Shown in pieces: positions 9,930 to 56,342 of a stretch of DNA of 64,000 nucleotides. Location of the stretch: contig NZ_CP029186.1 in the NCBI RefSeq assembly GCF_003096035.1, forward strand, positions 881,001 to 945,000, in the 5' to 3' direction. A model generated the notes under the pieces. It ran no database searches. It was not told the DNA's origin and saw nothing but the letters and a program-made list of their open reading frames with translations. The translations under genes were made by a program, and so were the position numbers. Numbering within the stretch: position 1 is the stretch's first letter; every line of letters begins with the position of its first letter. This stretch comes from Flavobacterium album. Its GTDB lineage: Bacteria; Bacteroidota; Bacteroidia; Flavobacteriales; Flavobacteriaceae.

Positions 9930-10050
9930 AACACACCCCGACCCCTCTCAAGCGGGGAACACTCGGGGTATGCTTACTCAAACCCTTAATACGGGCTTAT
10001 TTTCGGCATGAGTGAAGCTCTTCCCCTCTTGAGAGGGGCCAGGGTGTGTT
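9930..10050. repeat. Intergenic inverted repeat, CCCCTCTC family
   Basis: The left arm (9930-9952, with ACACACCCCGACCCCTCTCA) pairs with the right arm (10028-10050, with TGAGAGGGGCCAGGGTGTGT). Between them is GCATGAGTGAAGCTCTTCCC (from 10006), a tag seen again near 46934, 50025, 51500 and 56263. Confidence 0.8.
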
Positions 10051-11670: not shown

Positions 11671-11775
11671 GGCCTCACCTGGCCCCCTAACCCCCGAAGG
11701 GGAACTCCACTCAGTCCCGATAACCAATGAGTAAGCACGCCCGAGTAGAATTCCCCTTCGGGGGCTAGGAGGCCC
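11671..11775. repeat. Intergenic inverted repeat, CCCCCGAAGGGGAA family
   Basis: CCCCCTAACCCCCGAAGGGG (from about 11683) is mirrored by TTCCCCTTCGGGGGCTAGGA (11751-11770). The 50-base centre contains an ACTCAGTCC segment. Confidence 0.8.
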
Positions 11776-25961: not shown

Positions 25962-25995
25962 AAAGTTCCGAGTTTCGGGTTCTGGGCTAAGGGTT
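25962..25995 (+). repeat. Stop-adjacent GTTCCGGGTTT-type repeat
   Basis: AGTTCCGAGTTTCGGGTTCT begins about 10 bases after the stop of the 25743 gene and reads in the same direction as that gene. It belongs to the family found beside stop codons at 38668, 41599, 54401 and 55586. Confidence 0.65.
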
Positions 25996-38136: not shown

Positions 38137-38586
38137 TTATGGGTTCAGGGTTTCGGGTTCAGGGTTTTGAGCATCCGCCTGAATACTTGTGCCTGCTTTA
38201 GTAAATTTAGATCCTTTATAATTAGAAGCATTTAAATAGGAAATAAAAGAACCTAATAATTTGTTTTCCTGTTCCGTTTTATCGGCAACAAGTCTGAACT
38301 GTTCTTCACTAATATGTTTCCTGTCGAGAGCACGGTATAATTGGGAACGAAGTTCACCGCATGAACCTTTTGAAATACTAAGGAACTGAATGAATTCACG
38401 ATTTCCGTTACGTTCAAAGCCTTCTGAAATATTGTCCATAATAGAACCTGATGACTTATTCATTTGGTTGCGAAGTTCAAAATCTTTTCCAAGAGTTGTA
38501 GTTTCAAATAAATACCAGACATCCTGGCATATCTCTCTTGCCAGCTGCCAAACTTTTAAATCTTCAAATTTCTCAATTTTCGCCAT
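38137..38586 (-). CDS. S23-type four-helix-bundle protein, copy A
   Basis: A 149-aa protein of the S23/four-helix-bundle family, named after ORFs in 23S rRNA intervening sequences and related in fold to the Avd protein of diversity-generating retroelements. Motifs are FEDLKVWQLAREIC, GKDFELRNQMNKSSGSIMDN, ISEGFERNGNREFIQFLSIS, KGSCGELRSQLYRALDR and NYKGSKFT. The last ~12 residues (DAQNPEPETLNP) are encoded by an intergenic GGGTTC-type repeat. About 80% identical by eye to copy B at 41686. It sits between moxR and the DUF58 gene, where the operon normally has no gene. It is not a ribosomal protein. Confidence 0.85.
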   Translation of the reverse strand: MAKIEKFEDLKVWQLAREICQDVWYLFETTTLGKDFELRNQMNKSSGSIMDNISEGFERNGNREFIQFLSISKGSCGELRSQLYRALDRKHISEEQFRLVADKTEQENKLLGSFISYLNASNYKGSKFTKAGTSIQADAQNPEPETLNP

Positions 38587-38668
38587 ATAGCTAATTTACT
38601 ACAAAAACCCGCAATTGTTTTTTACGTTTCTACAAGCAACCCGGAACTCTAAACCCAAAACCCAGAAC
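38139..38668. mobile_element. Candidate S23 cassette A bounded by inverted repeats
   Basis: The left arm (38139-38168, GGGTTCAGGGTTTCGGGTTC) and the right arm (38639-38668, containing ACCCGGAACTCTAAACCC and AACCCAGAAC) are inverted copies of one repeat. They enclose the S23 gene. The right arm ends 5 bases from the moxR stop and the left arm 13 bases from the DUF58 start. No transposase is inside. That this is a mobilised unit is inference. Confidence 0.45.
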
Positions 38669-38672
38669 GGTT

Positions 38673-39677
38673 TTACGGCACCTCAACTTCGTTGATGATC
38701 TTATTGATGATATCCACCGAGGTGATGTTCTCGGCTTCGGCTTCGTAGGTAATACCGATACGGTGGCGCAGTACATCATATACTACAGCACGTACATCTT
38801 CGGGGATTACGAAACCGCGGCGCTTGATGAAGGCATAGCACTTGGCCGCCACGGCAAGGTTGATGCTTCCCCTTGGTGAAGAACCGAAACTGATCCACGG
38901 CTTGATTTTTTCTAATTTATATTTTTCGGGGTAGCGGGTAGCGAACACGATGTCGAGGATATATTTCTCGATCTTTTCGTCCATGTAAACCTCGCGGACG
39001 GTTTGCTGGGCGCGGAGTATCTGTTCTATGGAAACGACCTGGTTCACTTTGTCGTAAGCCCCTTTCAGGTTTTGGCGGATCACCATGCGCTCCTCGTCCA
39101 TTTTCGGGTAATCGATAACGGCTTTCAGCATAAAACGGTCTACCTGTGCTTCCGGCAGCGGATAGGTACCTTCCTGCTCCACGGGGTTTTGCGTTGCCAT
39201 TACCAGGAACGGCTGCTGCAGTTTAAAGGTTTCTTCACCAATGGTCACCTGCTTTTCCTGCATCGCCTCGAGCAACGCACTCTGCACTTTGGCAGGGGCA
39301 CGGTTGATCTCATCCGCAAGGACGAAGTTGGCGAATATCGGGCCTTTCTTTATGGTAAATTCGTTTTGCTTTACGTTGTAGATCATGGTTCCCACCACGT
39401 CGGCAGGAAGCAGGTCGGGCGTAAACTGGATACGGCTGAAGCTGCCGTGCACCGCCTGCGACAGTGTGTTGATGGCAAGGGTTTTCGCAAGCCCGGGAAC
39501 GCCTTCGAGAAGGATATGCCCCTGCCCGAGTAGCCCTATCAGCAGGCGCTCAATCATATATTTCTGGCCTACGATGACCTTGTTCATTTCCATGGTGAGC
39601 AGGTCGACAAAGGCACTTTCGCGTTCTATCTTTTCGTTGATCGCCCTTATATCGAGGGACGATGTAGTATCTTCCAT
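38673..39677 (-). CDS. MoxR family AAA+ ATPase
   Basis: A 334-aa cytoplasmic ATPase with Walker A GVPGLAKT (residues 59-66), Walker B and DEINRAPAKVQSALLEAMQE (~115-134), sensor 1 MATQNPVEQEGTYPLPEAQ and arginine-finger region DRFMLK. The C-terminal helical lid contains YPEKYKLEKI and FGSSPRGSINLA (sensor 2). MoxR proteins work as chaperone-like partners of VWA proteins. It is the first gene of the Bat operon; transcription of the downstream genes would have to pass the S23 gene and its flanking repeats. Confidence 0.95.
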   Translation of the reverse strand: MEDTTSSLDIRAINEKIERESAFVDLLTMEMNKVIVGQKYMIERLLIGLLGQGHILLEGVPGLAKTLAINTLSQAVHGSFSRIQFTPDLLPADVVGTMIYNVKQNEFTIKKGPIFANFVLADEINRAPAKVQSALLEAMQEKQVTIGEETFKLQQPFLVMATQNPVEQEGTYPLPEAQVDRFMLKAVIDYPKMDEERMVIRQNLKGAYDKVNQVVSIEQILRAQQTVREVYMDEKIEKYILDIVFATRYPEKYKLEKIKPWISFGSSPRGSINLAVAAKCYAFIKRRGFVIPEDVRAVVYDVLRHRIGITYEAEAENITSVDIINKIINEVEVP

Positions 39678-39855
39678 ATCCTAAAAGTTTTGGAGTGTGA
39701 ATTTAGTGATGTAAAGCTAACGAAACAAATAGACTTTTAATATATTCCGTGTATGTTAACGACTTGTTAAGAATTAACGCCTAAATATGGTATTGCCATT
39801 TTGCCAATCCTATTTTTCCTATTTTTATGGCACCAAAAAAATAAAATCCATTCTG

Positions 39856-40725
39856 ATGAACTTAAAACTGTCCCCGGTAATAGCGGGAACGATGAACTGG
39901 GGCGTGTGGCAGGCCAACTTCACCACCGCCCAGATGATACAGCTGATGCACGAATGCATATCGTATGGCATTACTACTTTTGACCATGCCGATATTTACG
40001 GCGGCTATACTACTGAAGAGGAATTTGGCAGGGCATTCGCCGAAAGCGGGATCAACCGTGAAGATATACAACTTATATCCAAGTGCGGCATCCAACACAC
40101 ATTGGGAAGCCGTCCTACCAAAGTAAAGCATTACGACTACTCGAAGGAATATATTATCTGGTCAGCAGAGAACTCCCTGAAGTTTTTGCAGACTGACTAT
40201 CTCGACATCCTCTTATTACACCGCCCGAGCCCGCTTATGCAGCCCGATGAGATCGCCGAAGCGGTGGAAAAGCTGAAAAGCGAAGGCAAGATAAAGGAGT
40301 TTGGCGTATCAAATTTTACCAACAGCCAGACCGACCTAATCCGTTCCCGTACCGAAGTGGCCTGCAACCAGATCGAATTTTCGGCTACGCATTTTGAGCC
40401 AATGCTTGACGGCAGCATGGATTATATGACCGTGAACGGCATAAAGCCACTGGCATGGAGCCCTATAGGATCTGTATTTAAAGCGGACACGGAACAATCG
40501 CAACGCCTGAAAATGTTGTTGCTGGAATTTGTTGAAAAATATGAGGCTTCGGCCGATGTTATCCTCCTGGCGTGGATCATGCAGCACCCCGCAGGCATTA
40601 TCCCGGTAACCGGATCGTGCAGCACCGACAGGCTAAAGAACCAGATGAAAGCTACTCAGCTCCAACTCGAACTCGAAGACTGGTTCGCTATATGGACGGA
40701 AAGCATGGGGGCGAAGGTTCCTTAA
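39856..40725 (+). CDS. Aldo/keto reductase
   Basis: A 289-aa NADPH-dependent oxidoreductase with a TIM barrel. The AKR catalytic residues are visible: Asp/Tyr in FDHADIYGGYTTEEEFG (about residues 38-54), Lys in LISKCGIQ, and His in ILLLHRPSPL. The NADPH-binding C-terminal part has GIIPVTGSCSTDRLKNQMKA. It is close to the YdhF subgroup by pattern. The open frame reaches back to 39787, but ATG 39856 (MNLKLSPVIAGTMNWGVW) is the family start. The substrate is unknown. Confidence 0.9.
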   Translation: MNLKLSPVIAGTMNWGVWQANFTTAQMIQLMHECISYGITTFDHADIYGGYTTEEEFGRAFAESGINREDIQLISKCGIQHTLGSRPTKVKHYDYSKEYIIWSAENSLKFLQTDYLDILLLHRPSPLMQPDEIAEAVEKLKSEGKIKEFGVSNFTNSQTDLIRSRTEVACNQIEFSATHFEPMLDGSMDYMTVNGIKPLAWSPIGSVFKADTEQSQRLKMLLLEFVEKYEASADVILLAWIMQHPAGIIPVTGSCSTDRLKNQMKATQLQLELEDWFAIWTESMGAKVP

Positions 40726-40736
40726 TTTTGTCCGAA

Positions 40737-40816
40737 GTCCGGGGTCGGAAGTCGGAAGCCGGAGGTCGTGAGGACAAGACGTATAGGCATCGGACATCGG
40801 ACTTCCGACCCCGGAC
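40737..40816. repeat. GTCCGGGGTCGGAAGTC inverted repeat after a stop codon
   Basis: TTTGTCCGAAGTCCGGGGTC at the left (GTCCGGGGTCGGAAGTCGG core) is mirrored by GACTTCCGACCCCGGACAAA at the right. It starts 11 bases after the stop of the aldo/keto reductase gene. The last ~35 bases before the next ATG are AT-rich. Confidence 0.75.
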
Positions 40817-40850
40817 AAAAATCTAATAATCTAACTATTCAACAATCTAA

Positions 40851-41600
40851 ATGAAGACAGCATTAATAACAGGGGCAACAAGCGGTATCGGCAGGGAAAC
40901 GGCCAGGCTGTTTGCCAAAAACCATTTCAGGATCATCCTTTGCGGGCGCAGGGAAGACCGGCTCGCCGAGTTACAGGACGAATTCTCGGCACTTACGAAA
41001 GTACACACGCTGAACTTTGACGTGCGCGACAGGAAGGATGTAGAGGCGGCCATAGCAGCTATTCCAGAGGAATTTGCCAACATCGATATACTTATCAACA
41101 ATGCAGGCAATGCCCATGGCCTCGATCCTATCCAGAATGGTGATGTGGACGACTGGGATGCCATGATCGACATTAATGTAAAAGGGCTTTTGTATGTTTC
41201 CAAAGAAGTGATACCGGGCATGGTGGAGCGGAAACACGGGCACATCATCAATATTGGGTCGATCGCAGGGAAAGAGGTTTATCCCAACGGCAATGTTTAC
41301 GCGGCTACCAAACATGCTGTTGATGCATTGAACCAGGGGATGCGCATGGATCTTAACCAGTACGGCATCCGCGTAGGCGCTATCAACCCGGGCATGGTAA
41401 ATACCGAATTTTCCGAAGTACGCTTTAAAGGCGACACCCAGCGTGCAGAGAACGTGTATAAAGGTATGGAGCCACTAAAGCCGGAGGATATCGCGGACAT
41501 AATTTTGTTTGTTGTAACAATGCCTTACCATGTCAATATTGCGGATTTGATGGTGTTACCTACTGCACAGGCTTCAGCTACAATGGTGAATAGGTTATGA
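40851..41600 (+). CDS. SDR family oxidoreductase (YdfG-like)
   Basis: A 249-aa short-chain dehydrogenase of classical length. The cofactor motif is TGATSGIGRE (residues 8-17), followed by LCGRREDRLAEL, the NNAG motif at LINNAGNAHG (~83-92), the catalytic Ser in IINIGSIAGKE and YAATKHAVDAL (YxxxK; ~151-161). The pattern resembles YdfG/serine 3-dehydrogenase enzymes acting on hydroxy acids. Cofactor preference for NADP is suggested by the basic GRREDR stretch. The stop codon TGA is directly joined to a GTTCCGGGTT repeat. Confidence 0.92.
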   Translation: MKTALITGATSGIGRETARLFAKNHFRIILCGRREDRLAELQDEFSALTKVHTLNFDVRDRKDVEAAIAAIPEEFANIDILINNAGNAHGLDPIQNGDVDDWDAMIDINVKGLLYVSKEVIPGMVERKHGHIINIGSIAGKEVYPNGNVYAATKHAVDALNQGMRMDLNQYGIRVGAINPGMVNTEFSEVRFKGDTQRAENVYKGMEPLKPEDIADIILFVVTMPYHVNIADLMVLPTAQASATMVNRL

Positions 41601-42140
41601 GTTCCGGGTTGCGAGTTCCGGGTTACTCGGAGGTGACGTAGAGAAGTTGGGGGTTTAGAATTGCTTGTTGGCATAAAAACATTATATGGCAAGAATCGAG
41701 AAATTTGAAGATTTAAAAGTTTGGCAACTGTCCAGAGAAATCTGCCGTGATATTTGGCATTTATTTGAAATGACCCCGTTAGGGAGAGATTTTGAACTTC
41801 GAAATCAAATGAATAGATCATCGGGTTCAATTATGGACAACATTTCGGAAGGTTTTGAACGTAACGGTACCAGAGAGTTCATTCAGTTTCTAAGTATTTC
41901 AAAAGGCTCGTGCGGAGAACTCCGTTCACAACTTTACAGAGCTCTTGACAGAAAACATATCAGTCAGGAACAGTTTGATATGATTGTCGTAAAAACAGAT
42001 TCTGAAAGTAAGCTAATAGGTTCATTCATGTCATATCTTAATTCCGCTAATTATAAAGGAAGTAAATTTACCAAACCAACTTCAACATCTAATCACGCAG
42101 ATGCTCAAAACCCGGAACCCGAAACCCAAAACCCGGAACT
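41599..42140. mobile_element. Candidate S23 cassette B bounded by inverted repeats
   Basis: The left arm (41599-41624, GAGTTCCGGGTTGCGAGTTC) and the right arm (42107-42140, CCCGGAACCCGAAACCC and ACCCGGAACT) are inverted copies of the same repeat as in cassette A, again enclosing an S23 gene. The left arm overlaps the SDR stop codon; the right arm encodes the end of the S23 protein and stops 7 bases before the next ATG. Confidence 0.5.
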
Positions 42141-42144
42141 ATAA
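41686..42144 (+). CDS. S23-type four-helix-bundle protein, copy B
   Basis: A 152-aa paralogue of copy A (38137). It starts MARIEKFEDLKVWQLSREIC. The central block (RSSGSIMDNISEGFERNG, FIQFLSISKGSCGELRSQLY, RALDRKHIS) is almost unchanged, and divergence is concentrated in the helix after residue 93. About 80% identical overall by eye, so the two are not a recent duplication. The C-terminal DAQNPEPETQNPEL is again read from the repeat. Family members are basic, probably RNA- or DNA-binding bundles; no catalytic residues are known. The next gene begins 2 bases after its stop. Confidence 0.85.
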   Translation: MARIEKFEDLKVWQLSREICRDIWHLFEMTPLGRDFELRNQMNRSSGSIMDNISEGFERNGTREFIQFLSISKGSCGELRSQLYRALDRKHISQEQFDMIVVKTDSESKLIGSFMSYLNSANYKGSKFTKPTSTSNHADAQNPEPETQNPEL

Positions 42145-46931: not shown

Positions 46932-47043
46932 CAGCATGAGTGAAGCTCTTCCCCTCCTCTGGAGGGGTGGCGGAGCCGGGGGTGGTTTATACATAATTTA
47001 ACCACCCCTCCCTTCGGGCACCCCTCCAAAGGAGGGGAAGCGA
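46932..47043. repeat. GAGTGAAGCTCTTCCCCTC inverted repeat
   Basis: It starts GCATGAGTGAAGCTCTTCCC (46935-46954), continues as CTCCTCTGGAGGGGTGG, and closes with CCACCCCTCCCTTCGGGCAC and CCTCCAAAGGAGGGGAAGCG. Same tag as the elements near 10006, 50025, 51500 and 56263. Confidence 0.8.
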
Positions 47044-49882: not shown

Positions 49883-49988
49883 TGCCTTTGATGTTGCGGC
49901 AACACCGTTGCCTGGTTACGTTTTGGTCATTTGTTGTTTTAAATGTTATCTTGCTTTGCTGTGCCGAATACATACTCTTAATTCCTAA

Positions 49989-50043
49989 TACAACCACCCC
50001 GCCCTTCGGGCACCCCTCCAAGGGAGGGGAAGAGCTTCACTCA
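49989..50043. repeat. CACCCCGCCCTTCGGGCACC repeat, partial
   Basis: CACCCCGCCCTTCGGGCACC, CCTCCAAGGGAGGGG and AAGAGCTTCACTCATA match the right half of the element at 46932-47043. The GAGTGAAGCTCTT tag is inverted relative to it. Confidence 0.75.
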
Positions 50044-50063
50044 TACCCAATACCTGTTTAGGT

Positions 50064-50434: not shown

Positions 50435-50493
50435 AATTTTGAAGGTAATTTGAATTTAGAATAAATCTAAGGTTCAGTTTTCAGTCACAGTTC

Positions 50494-50553
50494 TCAAAAG
50501 TCCTCTCCCCCGACCCCTCTCCCAAGGAGAGGGGAGCGAGATGTGCCGACAGA
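50494..50553. repeat. CCTCTCCCAAGGAGAGG repeat with ACGTGCCGACAG tail
   Basis: AGTCCTCTCCCCCGACCCCT, CTCCCAAGGAGAGGGGAGCG, then AGATGTGCCGACAG. Nearly identical over about 55 bases to 56283-56337 (AGACGTGCCGACAG there). Confidence 0.85.
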
Positions 50554-50618
50554 ACGTTATCTGGCCTGTAATGGAACGTTTAAAAAGTGCCTGTAGTTTG
50601 GTAATAGCCCTGGCGGAA

Positions 50619-54249: not shown

Positions 54250-54401
54250 GGCTATACCGCAAAGATGCGCGTAGCGACGAGAAGATGCACAAAAGGTTTT
54301 TCTGCTTCACAGAATGGGGTTACTATGTGAGACGTAGCAGTGCTACGCCTCTACGCCGTATTTGGCGGCAACCCCGAACCCGCGACCCGAAACCCGGAAC
54401 T
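54250..54401. repeat. Composite repeat: CGTAGCAGTGCTACG and stop-adjacent arm
   Basis: CGCAAAGATGCGCG near 54256 recalls the 28930 element. GTGAGACGTAGCAGTGCTAC (about 54326-54345), then GGCAACCCCGAACCCG and GACCCGAAACCCGGAACTT follow. Read on the minus strand the last part is GTTCCGGGTTTCGGGTC, beginning 7 bases after the corA stop. A partner copy is at 55512-55586. Confidence 0.75.
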
Positions 54402-56204: not shown

Positions 56205-56342
56205 TGCCACCTCACCCCCAGCCCTGCCTACCGGCAGCAGGCCCTCTCCTAAGGAGAGGAAAGCAGCTTCACTCAGGCTGAACAGTCCTCTCCCCCTACC
56301 CCTCTCCCAAGGAGAGGGGAGCGAGACGTGCCGACAGTACGT
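56205..56342. repeat. Tandem CCCTCTCC-type inverted repeats
   Basis: Two related units: CCTCACCCCCAGCCCTGCC... AGGAGAGGAAAGCAGCTTCA (about 56208-56275), then CCTCTCCCCCTACCCCTCTC and CCAAGGAGAGGGGAGCGAGA followed by CGTGCCGACAG. The second is nearly identical to 50494-50553. They fill most of the 322-base gap 56119-56440, which holds no gene. Confidence 0.85.

Follow-up and report, generated by a model that had tools for sequence, protein, structure and literature searches.

Two genes of the S23 family lie in the window, the whole 64,000-nt stretch of Flavobacterium album DNA analysed here, and each is enclosed by inverted copies of one repeat. What does such a protein have to do with such a repeat? 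S23 genes are small orphan genes that occur in many bacterial phyla. Both window proteins match PF05635 (106.5 and 108.3 bits; cut-off 33.8) and TIGR02436, 23S_rRNA_IVP (101.2 and 100.7 bits; cut-off 24). Copy 1 (149 aa, 38137–38586, minus strand) has an upstream heptad arm of the GGGTTYC type at 38632–38668 on the minus strand, a lag-7 array belonging to inverted repeat I4, and a downstream arm at 38139–38173 on the plus strand, belonging to inverted repeat I2. Copy 2 (152 aa, 41686–42144, plus strand) has its upstream arm at 41600–41626 on the plus strand, within a lag-7 array at 41590–41629, and its downstream arm at 42107–42140 on the minus strand, part of repeats I2 and D4, which stops 6 nt before the next gene. 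In both copies the downstream arm overlaps the gene and supplies its last codons, so that DAQNPEPETLNP and DAQNPEPETQNPEL are encoded there. The original prediction had noted the enclosing arms, the shared codons and a protein identity of about 80%, and these observations held, the computed identity being 81%. At the DNA level the copies are 75% similar across 550 nt that comprise the gene and both arms, and the similarity stops there. The interval 38139–42140 is not a single element but contains two, with moxR, aldo/keto reductase and SDR genes between them. The neighbours of copy 1 are moxR and a gene that we read by eye as DUF58; those of copy 2 are the SDR gene and an SLFN/DUF5929 gene. 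The names sufC, sufD, DUF58 and "fatty-acid genes" are presumed assignments from our own reading of the sequence.

The window repeat is a 7-bp tandem of degenerate sequence, (CGGGTTY)n. As had been claimed, it also occurs singly, in lag-7 arrays of the GGGTTYC type at 25963–25995 (plus strand) and 54370–54400 (minus strand, repeat D4). A solo heptad hairpin of the TCGGAAG type lies without S23 at 40727–40819 on the plus strand, between the genes for the aldo/keto reductase and the SDR, and consists of two lag-7 arrays with an inverted match of 17.5 (repeat I8). The genome contains 68 matches to GGGTTYCGGGTTY at up to one mismatch, versus 32 to the reversed control pattern, and the three further S23 genes of this genome, which has five, carry heptads different from those of the window copies. 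S23 is the sole gene between the arms and Pfam gives PF05635 alone, in agreement with the view that the cassette holds neither nuclease nor polymerase. The predicted RNA fold of copy 1 was no better than that of shuffled sequences (z = −0.9), whereas copy 2 gave z = −3.5.

To place these two loci, we collected 157 S23 loci by protein similarity, with the arms playing no part in the choice. After removal of two duplicates, 155 distinct loci from about 15 phyla were compared with 600 control ORFs; locus L187, at a contig edge, was left out of a comparison of heptads among loci, and all 157 loci entered the AG phase analysis. Eighty of the survey loci are the best 80 of at least 551 confirmed, each genome search contributed its 30 top-scoring loci and not a random sample, and 15 of the 20 plasmid matches were fetched. 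The claim that S23 genes generally lie inside inverted arms was borne out: 131 of the 155 loci scored at least 18, compared with 52 of the 600 controls and 5.6% of shuffled arm pairs, and 11 scored below 15. The possibility that most related S23 genes lack arms is thereby answered in the negative. The inverted-arm observation is real and far more general than the two window genes.

A leading period of 7 or 8 (score at least 10) was found in 117 of 155 upstream and 120 of 155 downstream flanks, compared with 19 of 600 upstream control flanks. The mean best score was 13.3 upstream and 15.6 downstream at lag 7, 10.6 and 13.0 at lag 14, and 7.5 and 7.8 at lag 8, with 3.5–5.0 at the remaining lags. 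Median array length was 33 nt upstream and 35.5 nt downstream, about five units, a count based on arrays long enough to score at least 10. Upstream arrays are phased mostly on AG and downstream arrays on CT; phase-locking on AG was seen in 70% of the 119 upstream arrays and in 16% of the 122 downstream ones, and the upstream arrays contain 33% G versus 11% C, with the proportions reversed downstream. The heptad sequence varies among loci, while period, polarity and the pairing of the arms are kept. The notion of one repeat family being spread found no support, since the loci have period and polarity in common but not the heptads. S23 lies between co-directional genes at 103 of 136 loci (versus 721 of 1493); the loci are spread over many phyla and also occur on plasmids, and broken and partial S23 matches were seen. 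Each unit is made up of some five degenerate repeats of 7 nt (sometimes 8 nt), an S23 ORF and a complementary array, and its usual place is a short gap that separates co-directional genes.

At three orthologous junctions, S23 in its arms is present in some Flavobacterium species and a solo heptad hairpin in others. The sufC–sufD junction in 30 species, including F. album, comprises 17 short gaps, 10 sites with S23 genes of two N-terminal types, and 3 sites with 1–3 nt between the genes, which are empty sites in relatives of the kind associated with DNA transposons and MITEs. Lag 7 leads in 15 of the 17 short gaps, and the polarity of the solo hairpins is strong (16 of 17). The window loci are also unoccupied by S23 in most relatives at the species level; occupation throughout would have counted against the original prediction. 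In 49 other species a motif scan of the moxR site found no S23, and 25 of 42 parsed gaps (seven were unread) hold a heptad or octad hairpin, including that of the S23-free genome G073. In 39 of the 42 gaps the arms pair better with each other than with arms of other species (P = 3 × 10^−8), and the polarity of the solo hairpins there is weak (25 of 42, P = 0.047). At the SLFN site, 3 of 30 species have S23 and 10 of 20 measured gaps hold a heptad or octad array; seven species were unmeasured because there was no upstream ORF within 400 nt (five) or the gap was 2–3 nt (two). Arm co-evolution at one shared S23 site was weak (12 of 17, P = 0.01). The paralogues L004 and L005 have the gene and both arms in common. 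Recent transposition in the form of near-identical copies within a genome was rejected, as a set of 35 loci from four genomes (all 5 in F. album, and 10 from each of G097, G044 and G309, which have 17, 16 and 15 matches) contained no such copies, one exact 3.3-kb duplicate in G309 excepted.

We then compared the heptad load of genomes with and without S23. The pooled density of lag-7 arrays was 59.6 per Mb (67 in 1124 kb from 14 genomes) with S23 and 10.9 per Mb (10 in 920 kb from six genomes) without it, figures that are uneven among genomes and ignore kinship; 17 arrays had an inverted partner in the former set versus none in the latter. Per-genome densities of the seven S23-containing genomes from which at least 64 kb was sampled exceeded those of the six S23-free genomes (P = 0.016, kinship ignored; the F. 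album figure comes from the window and includes two S23 arms). G242 and G221 (8 and 17 per Mb) lie inside the S23-free range of 0–25 per Mb and G183 (33 per Mb) just above it, and no lag-7 array was found in any of the seven S23-containing genomes sampled at 20 kb only.

Our preferred reading, to which we give a probability of about 0.55, is that there is a family of heptad-hairpin elements whose protein-coding form is the S23 gene. The protein and the repeat, each an orphan until now, appear to form the two halves of a single unexplained system, and S23 and the heptad hairpins very probably work together as one functional system. S23 probably binds the heptad arrays; that it participates in spreading the hairpins is a more tentative suggestion. 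The AlphaFold model of copy 2 (pLDDT 87.5) has the four-helix bundle fold of 2gsc (TMt 0.92) and 2rld, and its next structural match is Avd (4dwl); a protein search for S23 relatives, judged on the best 120 of 5145 matches, added nothing further. A Xanthomonas S23 protein is reportedly a pentamer. Such a pentamer could form a ring that reads spacing, with one AG heptad per subunit, and its target would be the single-stranded arm, either as RNA or as DNA extruded into a hairpin. The tryptophan RNA-binding protein TRAP forms a ring that binds AG triplets at regular intervals in RNA; the proposed S23 ring would resemble it in reading regularly spaced AG units, but the protein families are unrelated. 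Reading of the arms might keep the elements going in one of two ways: S23 might promote hairpin copying and insertion into operon gaps with the help of host RNases and of the host enzymes for replication and repair, or it might control hairpin-containing transcripts. This full two-part arrangement, a pentameric ring reading the spacing of about five AG-phased heptads together with genome-wide hairpins that are kept alive or spread, is a conjecture that we rate somewhat below even. If it is true, S23 would supply the agent so far lacking for heptanucleotide repeats in bacteria at large, rRNA intervening sequences would be one special case, and two old puzzles, the role of S23 and the origin and change of heptanucleotide repeats in unrelated bacteria, would become one question. 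The anatomy would also explain S23 genes in operons (suf, CRISPR-cas) to which they have no apparent functional link.

Heptanucleotide repeats are familiar as the STRRs of cyanobacteria. Published examples are GGGAATC in Xanthomonas and GGGGA(T/C)T in Nostoc (PMC4692102) and TAACTGA in Beggiatoaceae (PMC4679880), and in the P6b region of Nostoc trnL there are classes of heptanucleotide repeat, with the whole hairpin replaced in place (PMC4476775). Like the present elements, these are degenerate, mostly intergenic 7-nt arrays; the difference is that S23 is tied to the arrays here, and neither "S23" nor "four helix" occurs in the main text of PMC4692102 and PMC4679880. Inverted heptad pairs are frequent in Xanthomonas but rare in Nostoc PCC 7120 (PMC4692102) and in Beggiatoaceae (PMC4679880), and the latter two cases count against the hairpin-family reading.

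The strongest alternative, which we consider unlikely but serious, is that S23 acts as an RNA-level regulator without mobility. Through their evenly spaced AG units, a TRAP-like S23 ring would bind the 5' arrays of the S23 mRNA and of solo hairpins, open the hairpin and tune the downstream operon gene; the hairpins would be inherited, their sequence drifting in place through slippage and template switching. The AG phase-locking of the sense-strand arrays ahead of the ORF, the five or so units per array and the location in co-directional operon gaps all favour this account, as do the persistence of hairpins at one site with turned-over sequence and matching arms and the scarcity of near-identical copies among the 35 loci. 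However, the near-zero gaps and the two S23 types at the sufC–sufD site require gain and loss, the broken and partial matches and the spread over many phyla and plasmids fit a selfish element, and, given how far the heptads diverge, spacing and AG are all that a protein could read.

S23 could instead be a parasite of hairpins that arise otherwise, an element like the rRNA intervening sequences (IVSs) that inserts into their loops and is rendered harmless by RNase III excision. The finding of S23 where relatives have solo hairpins favours this idea, as does the excision of the Coxiella IVS by RNase III (PMC4990558). That IVS has a 28-bp terminal stem and, before its S23 ORF, direct GACAGAT heptamers whose copy number varies among strains, and the same paper cites 23S rRNA IVSs with S23 ORFs in Leptospira and Brucella (PMC4990558). 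An S23 ORF within a stem of terminal inverted repeats is common to the IVSs and the present elements, an anatomy already published for the Coxiella IVS (PMC4990558). The present elements differ in having heptads in both arms, in occupying sites that also hold solo hairpins without an ORF, and in lying in protein-coding operons of many phyla and not in rRNA; both window copies lie between protein-coding genes. A loose script flagged rRNA motifs in four loci, which Rfam did not confirm; it matched none of the 14 S23 loci scanned besides the two window copies. Because the paralogues L004 and L005 share gene and both arms, and heptad arrays are not in excess in the pooled S23-free genomes, we regard parasitism as improbable.

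REP/RAYT systems consist of dispersed hairpins, some of which flank a dedicated gene in inverted orientation, and the heptad-hairpin elements resemble them in this respect, including repeats dispersed without the gene. A Y1 (HUH) transposase acting in trans might thus cut the hairpins. Among Bacteroidota, Y1_Tnp occurs in 128 of 157 S23-containing genomes versus 17 of 41 genomes without S23 (Fisher P = 1.5 × 10^−6, kinship ignored and lists compared by eye), and in a smaller set in 13 of 13 versus 0 of 2. The predicted likeness in repeat or partner nevertheless found no support: 29 of the 157 genomes, such as G147 with 9 S23 matches, have no Y1_Tnp, and 21 Y1 genes of the same genomes (one, L416, misread as 9 aa) have flanks that lack heptad arrays, with lag-7 scores of only 3–9, 11 of them carrying other inverted repeats (score at least 20). 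Moreover, the present elements contain no nuclease and no Y1/HUH transposase, and their repeat is defined by a 7-nt period and AG phase, not by a conserved short palindromic sequence. We rejected Y1 as the partner and regard this alternative as very unlikely.

Equally improbable is a retroelement in which S23, like Avd, would be a subunit of a reverse-transcriptase machine producing copies of the hairpin RNA. The S23 model shares its four-helix bundle with Avd of diversity-generating retroelements (DGRs; 4dwl) and matches the DGR RNP (8ub7), both with probability 1.00 and E of 0.02–0.06, and DGR homing requires a hairpin whose structure matters and not its sequence (PMC3240598). However, sequence identity to Avd is 11–14%, neither a reverse transcriptase nor a template/variable repeat was seen in the present elements, and no annotated feature closer than about 1.2 kb to any of the 15 plasmid S23 genes is a reverse transcriptase. 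RVT_1 is absent from 5 of 13 S23-containing genomes (G096, G109, G119, G242 and G309), and this partner was rejected as well. Neither a Y1 transposase nor a reverse transcriptase is obligatory. Chance or a compositional artefact of intergenic DNA has a negligible probability: inverted matches score at least 15 in 24% of control ORFs, but the controls exclude this reading, as the periodic signal belongs specifically to lag 7 (together with 8 and 14) and is absent at the 600 control ORFs and in the pooled S23-free genomes, and period 7 also appears in G+C-rich arrays such as those of L173 and L210.

The original prediction that both S23 genes (PF05635) of the window, one at the moxR site and one at the SLFN/DUF5929 site, lie between inverted arms, the downstream one encoding the C-terminus, was confirmed by the open reading frames, repeats and profile matches. 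A profile search of the complete 3.98-Mb Flavobacterium album genome (G000) found five PF05635 genes. The remaining three are each surrounded by inverted arrays of 7-bp period whose sequences are unlike the window arms; S23 in the gap read by eye as sufC-sufD has GTTTCAG-type arms, and S23 in the operon read by eye as fatty-acid has AGATNNN and TAGATTT/GAGAATT types. S23 genes were tested for arms at 155 distinct loci (157 less two duplicates), chosen by protein or profile similarity only: the five of G000; the 30 best-scoring loci from 121 genomes of the genus (S23 present in 119); the 28 best-scoring from 198 Bacteroidota genomes (present in 157); 15 of 20 plasmid matches (14 cyanobacterial and one from Riemerella); and 79 of the best 80 of at least 551 wider matches, covering about 15 phyla by record title and including one archaeal MAG, although MAG labels may err. 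The arm score, a local match of the upstream 200 nt to the reverse complement of the downstream DNA, was at least 18 at 131/155 S23 loci; control ORFs reached this value in 52/600 cases and shuffled pairs in 5.6%. It was at least 22 at 87/155 loci, compared with 8/600 and 2.0%, and fell below 15 at 11/155. The inverted-arm unit is associated with S23.

The arms share a period rather than a sequence. The leading self-match was at lag 7 or 8 (score ≥10) in 117/155 upstream and 120/155 downstream S23 flanks, compared with 19/600 control ORFs upstream, and array length centred on 33–35 nt, about five heptads. Read along the S23 sense strand, G is frequent and C scarce in upstream arrays, and the opposite holds downstream. 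AG keeps a fixed phase in 70% of the 119 arrays upstream, compared with 16% of the 122 downstream. The arrays at cyanobacterial S23 loci resemble known heptanucleotide repeats (STRR). Two S23 genes (L312 and L328) adjoin long tandem expansions that match themselves over about 440 and 230 nt.

The load of lag-7 arrays (self-matching at a 7-nt offset) also differed with S23 presence. Fourteen S23-bearing genomes (1124 kb sampled) held 67, compared with 12–25 at lags 5, 8, 10, 11 and 13, and 17 had an inverted partner, compared with 0–2 at other lags. In 920 kb from six S23-free genomes there were ten, similar to other lags (8–16), and none had an inverted partner. Densities per Mb were 172 (the window itself), 142, 86, 59, 33, 17 and 8 with S23, and 25, 17, 14, 9, 0 and 0 without it; the seven S23-bearing genomes sampled at just 20 kb had none. 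The per-genome difference (P 0.016) is uneven, comes from a small sample and ignores kinship.

At orthologous sites in other Flavobacterium species, the S23 unit alternates with solo hairpins (heptad hairpins lacking S23) and with near-empty sites. At the moxR site, a motif scan detected S23 in 0/49 other species, and 25/42 parsed gaps contained, under a strict rule, a heptad or octad hairpin of differing sequence families; a few species had a non-heptad hairpin. Own arms paired better there than cross-species arms in 39/42 (P 3e-8). Among the best 30 of 61 genomes compared at sufC-sufD, ten carried S23 (arm scores 12–22; two N-terminal types, five each), 17 had a short gap, in which lag 7 led in 15, and three had only 1–3 nt between the genes. 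Upstream of the SLFN/DUF5929 gene, S23 was present in three of the best 30 matching species, and a heptad or octad array occupied 10/20 measured gaps; seven of the 30 had no measurable gap or one of 2–3 nt. Where 17 species share S23 at one site, own arms exceeded cross arms modestly (12/17, P 0.01).

The window and three S23-rich genomes together gave 60 lag-7 arrays; 46 were intergenic despite 87% ORF coverage, 32 of them between co-directional genes. Co-directional neighbours on both sides were likewise found at 103/136 S23 genes, compared with 721/1493 control genes. CRISPR operons, with type I-D and III-B annotations, are among the hosts; on cyanobacterial plasmids (L100, L106 and L107), S23 occurs in the orders cas6-S23-cas4 and cas10-S23-cmr3. 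This placement might account for the "23S rRNA IVP" in a CRISPR-association figure of PMC10910872. In a draft genome (G044), six S23 matches (L310, L316, L319, L322, L325 and L331) are partial or contain stops, which suggests turnover. Because occupancy is patchy, some S23 copies are broken and the distribution is wide, we infer that S23 elements may spread; a regulator without mobility is a strong rival explanation.

The predicted model of a window S23 protein matches 2gsc and 2rld, followed by Avd (4dwl), the accessory protein of diversity-generating retroelements (DGRs), and a DGR ribonucleoprotein (8ub7). Q41, S48, N52 and E55 are invariant and R44 nearly so, all within the helix of residues 36–57, and R59 lies in the following loop. 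Avd is a pentamer. An S23 protein of Xanthomonas is also pentameric, according to an excerpt of PMC4990558. Given the pentamer, the unit number and the AG phase, an S23 ring would read about five AG heptads. DGR homing depends on hairpin structure, not sequence (PMC3240598, excerpt). The nearest published anatomy is the Coxiella IVS, with a stem and heptamers ahead of the S23 ORF (excerpt of PMC4990558). A word search of the main text of heptad papers on Xanthomonas/Nostoc and Beggiatoaceae returned neither "S23" nor "four helix", and searches of the openly licensed literature turned up no paper that links heptad arrays with S23 genes as a whole; the general link may be new.

As for a partner enzyme, an obligatory reverse transcriptase was rejected, RVT_1 having no match in 5/13 S23-bearing genomes. 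An obligatory Y1 (RAYT-family) transposase was also rejected: 29/157 S23-bearing genomes lack Y1_Tnp, and heptad flanks were absent at 21 Y1 genes of 11 genomes (lag-7 scores 3–9), 11 of which carry other inverted repeats. S23 and Y1_Tnp nevertheless co-occur beyond expectation among the 198 Bacteroidota (128/157 with S23 vs 17/41 without; lists compared by eye; P 1.5e-6, kinship ignored), yet their repeats are separate. Two Y1 genes, L402 (G000:C1:1185858-1186202) and L403 (1138709-1139038), have non-heptad inverted repeats such as CTCCGGAGGAG. A repeat search also revealed a second, GC-rich family of CCCCTCC..GGAGGGG hairpins in the window, direct and inverted, at 10002-10028, 11681-11774, 46934-47040, 49978-50050, 50493-50557 and 56278-56342; one pair is 92% identical, and this is probably an ordinary REP-like family.
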